A model generated the notes under the pieces. That model saw only the letters and a program-made list of their open reading frames with translations. It was not told the origin of the DNA and did not search any database. DNA of 64,000 nucleotides from Paracoccus saliphilus. GTDB lineage: Bacteria > Pseudomonadota > Alphaproteobacteria > Rhodobacterales > Rhodobacteraceae. Position numbers and translations under genes: made by a program. Every line of letters starts with the position of its first letter. Position 1 is the first letter of the stretch. Shown piece by piece: positions 49,709 through 52,962 of this stretch. The stretch covers positions 1,798,001 to 1,862,000 of the forward strand of contig NZ_CP067140.1 in the NCBI RefSeq assembly GCF_028553805.1, read 5' to 3'.

Positions 49709-50044
49709 TCAATCTGCTGTTTGCTCCCATTCACTGTTTGCGACTTCGAGTGCGGGGAAGAGACGATCCTGAACGTCGCCAGGTAGCTGAGAATAGTGAC
49801 CGCTCATCAGGAAGTTGAAGTCTATTCTGTGCTCTTTGAAGAAGTAGCTCATAATTTCCCTGTTCGGGAATGTGTGAGCCTTTTCCATGTTGCTAATGTT
49901 CGTGGTTCTTTTTAGCCCTAAGCTTCTCGCCAGTTCGGTCTGCATCAAATTTGCCGCATATCTGGCGGCTTTCAGCCGAATTGCACATGCAACAATGCCC
50001 ATGTCGCCAGTGTGCGCAAGTGAATGTTTTTGTTCGCTGTTCAT
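49709..50044 (-). CDS. XRE-family phage repressor
   Basis: From the ATG at 50044 the product has 111 residues. IVACAIRLKAARYAANLMQTELARSLGLKRTTNISNMEKAHTFPNREIMSYFF is a lambda-repressor-type helix-turn-helix. It has no C-terminal cleavage domain, so it is a short CI/C2-like protein. It stands divergent from a Cro-like gene with clear operators between them. An upstream start at 50134 would cover the operators and is less likely. Confidence 0.75.
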   Translation of the reverse strand: MNSEQKHSLAHTGDMGIVACAIRLKAARYAANLMQTELARSLGLKRTTNISNMEKAHTFPNREIMSYFFKEHRIDFNFLMSGHYSQLPGDVQDRLFPALEVANSEWEQTAD

Positions 50045-50070
50045 GTCGGCCTTGTAGTCCGTTTTCAGAA

Positions 50071-50111
50071 ATTCTGGAATGAATCTGTTCTGGAATATTG
50101 ACATTCCAGAA
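50071..50111. promoter_or_regulatory. Operators between repressor and Cro genes
   Basis: TTCTGGAAT (50088-50096) and ATTCCAGAA (50103-50111) form a perfect 9-bp inverted repeat with a 6-bp spacer. An extra ATTCTGGAAT lies at 50071-50080. They occupy the whole gap between the divergent regulators. Confidence 0.75.
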
Positions 50112-50132
50112 AAACTGGATGATCTATCGGAC

Positions 50133-50387
50133 ATGACTCAGGCATCCGACATCACCACGGCCCAAGTATGCGACGCGATTGGTCGATCGACCATCGCTCG
50201 TTCGCTTGGCGTAAAGGTTACCGCGGTAAGTAATGCGGTGACGGACGGCAAGTTTCCGGCGAGGTGGTTTCTGGTCATCAATAAATTTTGCGAAGGTGAC
50301 GGCATTCCATGTCCAGATCGCCTTTTCAGCTTTGTTGGTGCGGATGCGGTGGGTCGGCAAATATCCATCCAAAGGCGATGCCGGTGA
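50133..50387 (+). CDS. Cro-like regulator, end altered by the IS insertion
   Basis: From the ATG at 50133 the product has 84 residues. ITTAQVCDAIGRSTIARSLGVKVTAVSNAVTDGKFPARWFLVINKFCEGDG is a helix-turn-helix with a Cro-type layout. The stop at 50385-50387 touches the left IS end, so the C-terminus (ISIQRRCR) may be non-native. It is divergent from the repressor. Confidence 0.6.
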   Translation: MTQASDITTAQVCDAIGRSTIARSLGVKVTAVSNAVTDGKFPARWFLVINKFCEGDGIPCPDRLFSFVGADAVGRQISIQRRCR

Positions 50388-50635
50388 TGCTCCCCCATTG
50401 GATTGGTCCACCGTTATGTTTAGGAAAACGGAGGATCAGAAATGGCGAACAAGCGTCACAAACCCGAAGAAATTGTCACGAAGTTGCGGCAAGTTGAGGT
50501 CTTGGTCGGCCAAGGAATGTCGCGTGTCGATGCGATCCGTGAAGTTCGCGTTACCGAACAGACCTATTACCGTTGGCGCAAGCAATATGGCGGTATGGGA
50601 AGCGACCAACTGAAAGAACTCAAGCGACTTCAGAA

Positions 50636-50675
50636 TTGAGCCTGTGAACGCCACCGGTTCGAGAGAGCAGGCGAA
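50636..50675 (+). repeat. 40-nt hairpin insert 1 in IS3 orfA
   Basis: It starts TTGAG and ends GCGAA. GCCTG (50640-50644) pairs with CAGGC (50668-50672), with an inner stem GAAC/GTTC around the loop GCCACCG. TGA at 50637-50639 is in frame with orfA. It aligns without gaps to insert 2, with 27 of 40 identical. Confidence 0.7.
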
Positions 50676-50735
50676 CAATGAACGGCTGAGAAGGGCTGTG
50701 TCGGAGCTGACGTTGGACAAGCTGATCTTGGGGGA

Positions 50736-50775
50736 ATGAGGCATGGAATGCCACTGGTTCGAATGACATGCCGAA
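50736..50775 (+). repeat. 40-nt hairpin insert 2 in IS3 orfA
   Basis: It starts ATGAG and ends CCGAA. GGCAT (50740-50744) pairs with ATGCC (50768-50772), with inner GAAT/GTTC around GCCACTG. The stem bases differ from insert 1 but the pairing is kept. The TGA is again in frame. Removal restores the orfA end GNF-stop. Confidence 0.7.
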
Positions 50776-51059
50776 TGCCAAGGGAAACTTCTGAGCCCCG
50801 CTCGCCGTCGCGCCTGCATCGATCATGTGCGCAGCCAGATGAAGGTTTCCGAGCGTCGTGTGTGTCGTGTGCTGGGCCAACATCGCTCCACCCAAAGATA
50901 TCCACCGCAAGGACGTGCCGACGAAGAGCGGCTGGTCGCAGACATGATCGAACTGGCCCGTCAATATGGCAGCTCAGGCTATCGTCGGATCGCAGCTCTG
51001 CTGAGAGAAGCTGGATGGCAGGTGAACGATAAACGCGTCGAAAGGCTGTGGCGGCGAGA

Positions 51060-51105
51060 CTGAGGAGGATCAGGAAACAGTCCGGGGGACTGTTTGCCCG
51101 ACGAA
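51060..51105 (+). repeat. 46-nt hairpin insert 3 in IS3 orfB
   Basis: It starts CTGAG and ends ACGAA, the same ends as inserts 1 and 2. Inside, AAACAGTCC and GGACTGTTT form a perfect 9-bp hairpin with loop GGG (51075-51095). TGA at 51061-51063 is in frame with orfB. Removal rejoins orfB in frame. Confidence 0.65.
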
Positions 51106-51754
51106 GCTTAAAGTGCCAATGAAACAACCGAAGAAAGGCCGGCTCTGGCTGAACGACGGATCATGCATCCGGCTCCGGCCGGAATATCGTGATCATGTCT
51201 GGTCCTATGATTTCGTTCATGGCCGCACCGATGATGGCAAGGTGTTCCGGACATTGAACATCCTGGATGAACACAGCCGGGAATGCCTGGCGATCAGGGT
51301 CAAGCGCAAGCTGAGTTCGAATGACGTGATCGATGCCTTGAGCGACCTGTTCATCATGCGGGGCGTGCCGGGGTTCATTCGCTCCGACAACGGCCCCGAG
51401 TTCGTGGCCCAGGCTGTTCAGGACTGGATCAAGGCTGTCGGTGCCAGAACGGCCTATATCGAGCCAGGTTCACCTTGGGAGAACGGCTATTGCGAGAGCT
51501 TCAATGCCCGGTTCAGGGATGAACTGCTCGACGGCGAGATCTTTTACAGCTTGCGAGAAGCACAAATCCTGATCGAACAATGGAGAAAACACTACAACAC
51601 GAAACGACCGCATAGTGCTCTGGGCTATCGCCCGCCGGCACCGGAAACCATCGTATCGATAGACCCGAGCCTGCTCATGCACTAACAATCAAACCGGACC
51701 AATCAGATGGGGCGGGCCAGCCGCATAGATAAGCCGACACCAGCTGCAGGGCGA

Positions 51755-52066
51755 ATGACACCAAGCATCAATATGGGCGACCTTAGGGGGCTCTCACTGA
51801 TCGCTTCAAACATTCCATCAGTCGATTATCTCGGTGAAGACCCAGTCACGTTTGGTACCCGCGACACAATATTGTGTTGGGAGTTAGATGAACAACGCAA
51901 AATGGTTGTAAACCGACGCAGTAAGAGACCTGACAAAGGTACTGAACTACCCGAAAATGCATTCAGCAATTGGTCACCCAATGATGCTATAGATATGACT
52001 ACCGGACCGCTCCTCAACAAATTTCGAAAGTCTTTAACACTCACCGGCTGGCCCTACGAAGACTGA
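51755..52066 (+). CDS. Hypothetical protein beside the IS
   Basis: The product has 103 residues if the ATG at 51755 is used; an earlier in-frame start at 51707 would lie inside the IS end. It reads GLSLIASNIPSVDYLGEDPVTFGTRDTILCWELDEQRKMVVNRR and ends LTLTGWPYED. The sequence is AT-richer than the backbone. No family is recognised. The IS may have removed its true start. Confidence 0.45.
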   Translation: MTPSINMGDLRGLSLIASNIPSVDYLGEDPVTFGTRDTILCWELDEQRKMVVNRRSKRPDKGTELPENAFSNWSPNDAIDMTTGPLLNKFRKSLTLTGWPYED

Positions 52067-52087
52067 AAAAGTCGAATAGACGACGTT

Positions 52088-52388
52088 TTCGGTTTTTTGC
52101 GGACTGCCCGTAAAAAAACCGAATCGAACATTCGCTGCGCCTCAATCGGGTGATCACATTGGGCTCAGAGCCGACCTTGCCGTCGCCAAGGATACGGCAT
52201 TCGATCCTTACGGAATCAGACGAACGGGAAGTCTGGATGAGCGGCGCAACTGCCTTCGAGGTTCAGCGGCCACTAGAGGTAGTCGCGGAATCTCGGATCA
52301 GCGATTAAAGGGATGGCCAGAATTGATTGATAAACCCAAGTGAACGGTACATCCGAAGTAGCTTGACCGGGCGGTATCCTGCCCGGTC
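52088..52388. other. Two inverted repeats in the gap before attR
   Basis: TTCGGTTTTTT (52088-52098) and AAAAAACCGAA (52113-52123) form a perfect 11-bp stem and may be a bidirectional terminator. GACCGGGC (52365-52372) and GCCCGGTC (52381-52388) form a perfect 8-bp stem 40 bp before attR. The stretch 52067-52581 holds no gene that I can support. Confidence 0.5.
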
Positions 52389-52427
52389 GCCTCTCAAACG
52401 TCATTGAAACCATTGGCAATACGCCGT

Positions 52428-52474
52428 GATTGTGGATCCAGAGGTCCCCCGTTCAAGCCGGGGAGGCGGTACCA
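52428..52474. repeat. attR: 47-bp direct repeat of the tRNA-His 3' part
   Basis: It is identical to 45382-45428. The 5' half of the tRNA is absent, so this is an attachment remnant. Backbone resumes to the right. Confidence 0.93.
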
Positions 52475-52581
52475 TCTTCTATTCCATGATATCCAATACG
52501 AATCCGACAGCGGTTTGGAACAAAGAACTGACTGATGTGTTTAGATCACGAAGGTGAACAAACACACCGAAAGGAAATCAC

Positions 52582-52962
52582 ATGGCTAACCGGACCACGA
52601 CCGCCGAAGACATCAAGCGTGACACCAAGGCCGCCGCCCGCGAAGCGCGGGAGGACTTGGAAGAGGGTGCCCGCAAGATCAAGGAGGACGGACGCGAAAC
52701 CCTGGAGGAACTGTCTAATAACCGGGCGGCCGAGCGTCTGCGCGAGCGCGGTGCGGAATTTGCCGAAACGGCCCGTGAAACAGGCCGCGAATATGCCGAC
52801 CGCGCACGCGCGGAGGCCGGGCGGATTTACCAAGAGGGCCAACGCAAGGCCGAAGAACGCTATGACGAATTGTCCGAACTGGTCCGCCGTCACCCGGCAA
52901 GATCACTGGGGGTTGCGGCCGGTGTCGGCTTCCTCGTCGGTCTGATCCTCGCGCGCCGCTGA
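52582..52962 (+). CDS. DUF883 (ElaB/YqjD) family membrane-anchored protein
   Basis: The 126-residue protein is a long charged amphipathic helix (AAAREAREDLEEGARKIKEDG and so on). It ends in a C-terminal anchor HPARSLGVAAGVGFLVGLILARR, the DUF883 signature. E. coli relatives bind ribosomes at the inner membrane in stationary phase. It precedes a holin-like membrane gene by 10 bp, as elaB/yqjD-yqjE do. Confidence 0.88.
   Translation: MANRTTTAEDIKRDTKAAAREAREDLEEGARKIKEDGRETLEELSNNRAAERLRERGAEFAETARETGREYADRARAEAGRIYQEGQRKAEERYDELSELVRRHPARSLGVAAGVGFLVGLILARR

Follow-up and report, generated by a model that had tools for sequence, protein, structure and literature searches.

Very small hairpin elements, probably mobile and non-autonomous, in transposase genes of Rhodobacterales and in virus-like contigs

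Introduction

An IS3-family insertion sequence (IS) of Paracoccus saliphilus has transposase reading frames which are broken by short stretches able to fold back on themselves, and the question raised by this locus is what these stretches are and how they came to lie within a gene. The window analyzed here is a stretch of 64,000 nucleotides from the P. saliphilus genome (G000). The original prediction was that two 40-nt stretches in orfA, at 50636-50675 and 50736-50775, belong to a small mobile hairpin family which is kept by structure.

Results

The interrupted IS3 element

The features of the element are as follows.

50393..51712, + strand: IS3-family insertion sequence with three small inserts; imperfect inverted repeats at 50393-50409 and 51696-51712
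50442..50639, + strand: orfA, first part, 65 aa, HTH_Tnp_1 (E 7e-8); its stop is a TGA within insert 1
50636..50676, + strand: insert 1, a-type hairpin element, 41 nt, T-T-GA-stem-loop GCCACCGGTTCGA-stem-GA-A-C; replaces 4 nt
50736..50776, + strand: insert 2, a-type hairpin element, 41 nt, A-T-GA-stem-loop GCCACTGGTTCGA-stem-GA-A-T; replaces 4 nt
50827..51063, + strand: orfB, first part as listed, HTH_21; its stop is a TGA within insert 3
51060..51106, + strand: insert 3, b-type hairpin element, 47 nt, in orfB, C-T-GA-G..AAACAGTC CGGGG GACTGTTT..C-GA-A-G
51113..51685, + strand: orfB, second part, rve / rve_3 integrase core (Pfam), 190 aa

The gene order is orfA (HTH_Tnp_1) and then orfB (HTH_21 followed by rve/rve_3); the open reading frame of the first orfB part continues upstream of 50827, and the true ends of the IS probably lie a few bases beyond the inverted repeats. 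No lesion besides the three inserts was seen in these reading frames. The two predicted stretches were borne out in orfA, 100 bp apart and matching each other without gaps at 27 of 40 positions, and their spacing looks like a coincidence. Their location was correct but each proved one base longer at the 3' end, and removal of 40 nt, which had been proposed to restore orfA, does keep the frame as read from the sequence but does not recreate the empty site, since homologs give a net gain of 37 nt. Insert 3, which had been overlooked and has the core AAACAGTC-CGGGG-GACTGTTT, lies where intact homologs have GGGG. Insert 2 ends 5 nt before a GGGAAAC (50782) near the end of orfA. Within the window the pattern GCCACYGGTTCGA (at most 1 mismatch) was found in inserts 1 and 2 only, and two or more matches arose in 4 of 100 shuffles.

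Five intact IS3 homologs (G006, P. alcaliphilus, P. inhibens, Leisingera and Sulfitobacter) were without all three inserts in a seven-row alignment, from which a second G031 row on the wrong strand was left out. Each window insert stands in place of 4 homolog bases, with net gains of 37, 37 and 43 nt. The P. alcaliphilus homolog has an unrelated extra stretch near the insert 2 site, and an IS3 copy of G031 carries a b-type element at the insert 3 position and an a-type element elsewhere. The position of insert 2 is common to the IS copies of the window and of the loci L078, L082 and L087.

A second copy of the window IS in the P. saliphilus genome (G000:C1:883590-884889) was identical over 50421-51720 (1300 nt) and contained all three inserts between different flanks, indicating that the inserts were duplicated along with the IS; its left end appears truncated. 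No insert-free copy at high identity was found in this genome. Mobile copies of the same IS with the same stretches had been named beforehand as counting against insertion. Such a copy was found in part, in the form of this identical one, and it leaves insertion standing, since the corresponding positions are empty in homologous ISs. Another IS3, whose orfA holds an insert and an in-frame TGA, occurs at three sites (1 mismatch in 1559 nt), and five sites share its left end. These ISs were evidently duplicated with the inserts inside.

A covariance model matched insert 1 (G000:C1:1848636-1848676) at 59.6 bits and insert 2 at 59.8 bits, both elements being part of the model's training set, while Rfam gave no match at E ≤ 1 over 49800-52600 of the window. 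Folding z-scores against shuffles were -1.54, -1.65 and -1.42 as RNA and -1.02, -1.06 and -2.30 as DNA for inserts 1, 2 and 3, respectively. The folding energies of the window copies are not exceptional, and single-sequence folding is weak evidence.

Shared structure and covariation

Elements were filtered for GA on both feet and a stem score of at least 3.5, which gave 110 elements, or 70 sites after alike sites had been merged. The covariation set comprised 30 of these 70, all of length 41 with the loop at position 14. These 30 gap-free members from distinct sites share the plan N1-T-[GA]-G-stem-loop-stem-C-[GA]-A-N1', in which N1 precedes TGA and N1' follows GAA; because the filter demanded GA feet and a minimum stem score, the GA columns are invariant by design and pairing is partly favored.

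Covariation in this set was 0.901 compared with 0.195 after shuffling (none of 500 shuffles reached 0.901), and at most 0.138 when the arms were slid. Pairing was observed in 97.0% of cells, and changes on both sides in 94 cells compared with 28.7 in shuffles. Two of the five measures of the test did not stand out, namely the number of pairs with a double change (8 vs 6.6, matched by 57 of 500 shuffles) and the number of further pair types (24 vs 21.4, matched by 72 of 500). All four Watson-Crick types occur in columns 6-9 with 33-36, so that the outer stem proposed at the outset is real, and column 10-32 carries three types and a wobble. Columns 5-37 are always G-C, the filter fixes columns 3-39 as G.A and 4-38 as A.G, and columns 14-28, just outside the 13-nt loop, covary from C-G to T-A. 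The inner GAAY/GTTC stem of the original prediction did not hold up, since 84.2% of its cells pair with no pair changed on both sides and shuffles do equally well. Taken across members, the alignment indicates for the a-type stems that covary and a loop that is fixed.

N1 and N1' were complementary at 61 of the 70 sites (N1 was G in 44, A in 10, T in 9 and C in 7); insert 1, with T and C, is in the non-pairing minority. The pair outward of these was complementary in 2 of the 110 elements, because the left neighbor is A or G at 67 of 70 sites and the right neighbor G at 54 of 70. The foot N1-T-GA was present in 25 of the 30 aligned members, T being replaced by C or G in 5. The a-type is mostly 39-43 nt long and the b-type about 47 nt, and 18 b-type sites obtained by pattern search had the same foot, with variants.

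Abundance and distribution

The loop motif GCCACNGGTTCGA, with one base free, gave 45 matches in the P. saliphilus genome and the reversed pattern 1. Reading of their contexts placed 28 in an intergenic repeat and 14 in IS3-type transposases, and 3 looked like chance, one of them in a tRNA-Val gene. In the intergenic 28 the foot is Watson-Crick paired, not G.A, which may reflect a separate use of this hairpin. The intergenic repeat itself, pattern CTTCTTCTTCATNNAAATA (e.g., L094-L123), gave 159 matches with at most 1 mismatch, 72 forward and 87 reverse (reversed control, 0); G/C-rich hairpins follow it, 28 copies hold the a-type loop, and some have a changed 5' part. The tRNA-Val(GAC) gene (L081:483-557) contains an exact GCCACTGGTTCGA, and the loop may conceivably derive from a tRNA.

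Among 41 genomes of the genus an a-type 14-mer was found in 24 and the b-type in 17, with no match for either control. The 14-mer matched 36 times in G000, 29 times in G018 and 0-7 times in each of the others. When 30 loci among the matches listed were read, arms were present in most, absent in L128 and L143, and doubtful in L142 and L149; some matches, in G031 (L128; L149 is unclear), G035 (L142, one of two) and G061 (L143), are chance, the usual arms being lacking. Both G018 copies that were read are of the intergenic type, and single copies of this type also occur in G005, G016 and G022.

In an even draw over the class, the covariance model had hits at E ≤ 0.001 in the P. saliphilus genome and in 4 of 189 others, with at most 34 candidates scored per genome, so that weak copies may have escaped. 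Named genomes were also scanned with TGAG and the loop fixed and the 3' arm left free, which returned at least 120 stretches, other Rhodobacterales included. The exact 5-nt 3' arm was present in 47 of 80 loci among the matches listed. Alphaproteobacterial records accounted for 46 of these (out of 62), and the 18 records from elsewhere, a natural control for chance, for one (a Thiohalocapsa MAG). In virus-like contigs 57 of 94 matches had the 3' arm and a GA foot, and the remaining 37 were mostly one coding motif. The 3'-arm count and the viral-contig count are less affected by the selection for GA feet and stem score described above. Further members of the family, whose absence had been set beforehand as evidence against it, were thus found.

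A short gene with an a-type element at one place was seen in L129, L138, L145, L146, L196, L232, L238, L250 and many viral contigs among L344-L435, and both stem arms of this element change in matched fashion between the records.

Insertion mode and host genes

Empty homologs at 78% identity or more were at hand for 29 of the 70 sites. The element had replaced 4 target bases in 12 of these comparisons, 5 in 11 and other numbers in 6, two of the latter matching the same locus elsewhere. Where this is measurable, usually 4 or 5 target bases are replaced, the left neighbor being a purine and the right one mostly G. The target-site duplication expected of a MITE was not seen, 4-5 target bases being missing instead in 23 of the 29 comparisons. 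Net length modulo 3 was 0 at 9 sites, 1 at 11 and 2 at 9, as random, and the frame is therefore not generally kept.

Host frames were chosen by Pfam, G+C at codon positions having been dropped as it picked the antisense frame for known ISs. With 69 flanking segments per strand, most of which had no Pfam match, frames on the element strand matched 22 families, 16 of them transposase or HTH types (among them IS3, IS4/5, IS21 and Mutator), and frames on the opposite strand matched 10, of which 8 were transposase or HTH types (IS66 among them). GTA_TIM, ribonucleotide reductase, DAO, AAA_30, TACO1_YebC, TSC22, Fer2 and Fer2_3 were the other families near sites. By these Pfam matches, transposases of several IS families, on either strand, make up most of the identifiable host frames.

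Three copies were observed in frame. In L195 an a-type element lies stop-free in a gene matching the GTA TIM-barrel-like domain (GTA_TIM, E 1.5e-66), in L146 the element is stop-free in an 86-aa gene with no Pfam match, and in L193 a stop occurs further on. L299 and L382 are similar to the in-frame a-type sites of L195 and L193.

In diverged IS5-like copies (L061, L203, L205, L212, L274 and also L268) an a-type element with a common stem core, GTGGC/GCCAC, follows one and the same codon or lies near it, an arrangement that does not separate old insertion from repeated targeting. Third-position shares from these copies (0.42-0.48, leaving out L268 because its rows look misaligned) include non-coding sequence and were set aside.

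Recurrence at one orfB site and possible selection on interrupted genes

A b-type element was present at one orfB site in 7 of 15 IS3 rows, three of the seven being near-identical G031 copies. The tree of this site needs 4 changes, at least 3 of them forced on well supported branches, and a single clade of b-type rows was rejected (p-AU 2.7e-9, 15 rows), so that either this position was targeted more than once, or the insert moved between copies or was lost. Gene conversion or loss could account for part of this recurrence. L043, in which the region is deleted, was left out of the tree, and L046, a b-type variant outside the search pattern, was labelled as an insert by hand. The L046 variant occupies this IS3 orfB site too, ahead of the second orfB part, and its stem (AAAGGCCCAGTGGGGCGTTT) differs.

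Three inserts occupy identical positions in the IS copies of L082 and L087. Between these two copies 41 of 804 coding bases differ, 30 of them third positions, with 28 synonymous and 10 non-synonymous codon changes; a comparison with L043 (third-position share 0.36), which may be misaligned, was set aside. If the inserts are ancestral to both copies, the transposase would have been selected while interrupted. If they entered two already diverged copies later, the divergence says nothing on selection, and this second reading is kept alive by the recurrence of the orfB site. An IS in G020 looked decayed.

Discussion

Support for a small mobile hairpin family that is conserved in structure comes from copies in different genes, IS families, genera and virus-like contigs, in both orientations to transposase frames, and from empty homologous sites and strong covariation. 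We consider the inserts to be, with good probability, very small non-autonomous mobile hairpin elements of Rhodobacterales and virus-like contigs, as far as comparative sequence evidence can tell. Conservation of the loop, covariation of the stem and N1:N1' pairing suggest that it is a folded single strand that is recognized. The folded strand would be the mobile form, and a trans-acting factor might recognize the loop and the tandem G.A foot and join the element across a short gap. Transposase genes may accumulate copies because such genes are dispensable and multi-copy, and in functional genes copies may survive where the element reads in frame.

Byps of yeast mitochondria and T4 gene 60 are short hairpin inserts which break reading frames at many sites, and the inserts could likewise be tolerated parts of expressed genes, or miniature introns of transposase genes which return to fixed sites, with the insert removed from RNA or skipped by the ribosome. 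The interrupted genes would then stay selected and mobile, via a mechanism new to bacteria. The mostly synonymous divergence of L082 and L087 with their three shared inserts, the presence of insert-bearing ISs in several near-identical copies (two of the window IS, three of another IS3) and the common place of insert 2 in four ISs all speak for this, but the selection may predate insertion, the b-type site being a recurrent target. Elements also lie antisense to the host gene, their net lengths are random modulo 3, and there is no consistent landing codon, all of which sets them apart from byps. Insert 1 has matching take-off and landing codons in the required frame, but insert 3 and the L013 insert do not, and on these two translational bypassing fails; we regard removal or skipping of the inserts as unlikely. 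Chance similarity or the decay of one IS, to which the weak folding z-scores would be congenial, is scarcely credible given 45 loop matches against 1 for the reversed pattern, the genus counts with empty controls, the 3'-arm count among the matches listed and the covariation well above shuffles.

A main role of the hairpin as transcription terminator or RNA control element, its copies in genes being accidental, would fit the 28 of 45 P. saliphilus copies in the intergenic repeat CTTCTTCTTCAT..AAATA, and some of the 30 intergenic repeat copies that were read have other hairpins at the same place. We think this very unlikely, however, since gene copies occur in many genera, with their own foot and on either strand, most 14-mer matches come from G000 and G018, and the copies that were read are not followed by a run of T. 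REP-type palindromes moved by RAYT (Y1 tyrosine transposase) are of similarly short size, and the P. saliphilus genome has four Y1_Tnp matches (fragments, three above the family cut-off). Y1_Tnp (PF01797) was found in 5 of the 41 genus genomes, however, too few to explain elements whose 14-mer is in 24, and both occur together only in G000, G008 and G015; a GTAG start or CGTC tag was present in none of the 30 aligned members. Membership of the REP/RAYT group thus fails on tag and on enzyme and is highly improbable.

Rickettsia palindromic elements (RPE), which reportedly go back to Ogata 2000, are the closest kind in print. They are described as palindromic repeats within protein-coding genes of Rickettsia, some in frame (PMC2229807, PMC10969869), with lengths of 105-146 bp (PMC2229807). 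RPE and the hairpins described here are small alphaproteobacterial palindromes which are intragenic, some of them in frame, and have no enzyme of their own. Like RPE, the present hairpins are inserted in protein-coding genes, and L195 and L146 are in frame, although net lengths over the 29 sites are random modulo 3. They differ from RPE in their length of 39-47 nt, their occurrence mainly in Rhodobacterales, the tandem G.A foot, the fixed a-type loop, the replacement of 4-5 target bases and the fact that the genes identified are mostly transposases. Small dispersed repeats (SDR) of heterocystous cyanobacteria are reported (Elhai 2008) to be hairpins of about 21-27 nt with compensatory changes, and to be very small mobile repeats within other repeats. 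The likeness would lie in tiny hairpins with compensatory changes; SDR belong to another lineage and are shorter, and they are not known to show a transposase bias or a 4-5 nt replacement. REP, REPIN and CGTC-tagged palindromes are 20-40 nt long and some are intragenic (PMC3116915, PMC3733652), and REPs carry GTAG or CGTC (PMC3733652). The hairpins described here have no such tag, and Y1 transposases are in too few genomes. No description of this hairpin family was found in the titles and opening lines of abstracts of open-access literature, and the text of PMC3281130 contains none of the terms 'palindrom', 'hairpin' and 'stem-loop'.

Elements of about 40 bases would, to our knowledge, be among the smallest mobile elements. 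Their structure rule is precise enough for searching, and their insertion mode, in which 4-5 bases are replaced, is measurable. Copies could travel between genera because they are located in transposase, GTA and virus-like genes. The mostly synonymous divergence between L082 and L087 is a direct and testable puzzle, and the family would be a clean model for studying how a bare hairpin can move when it brings no enzyme.
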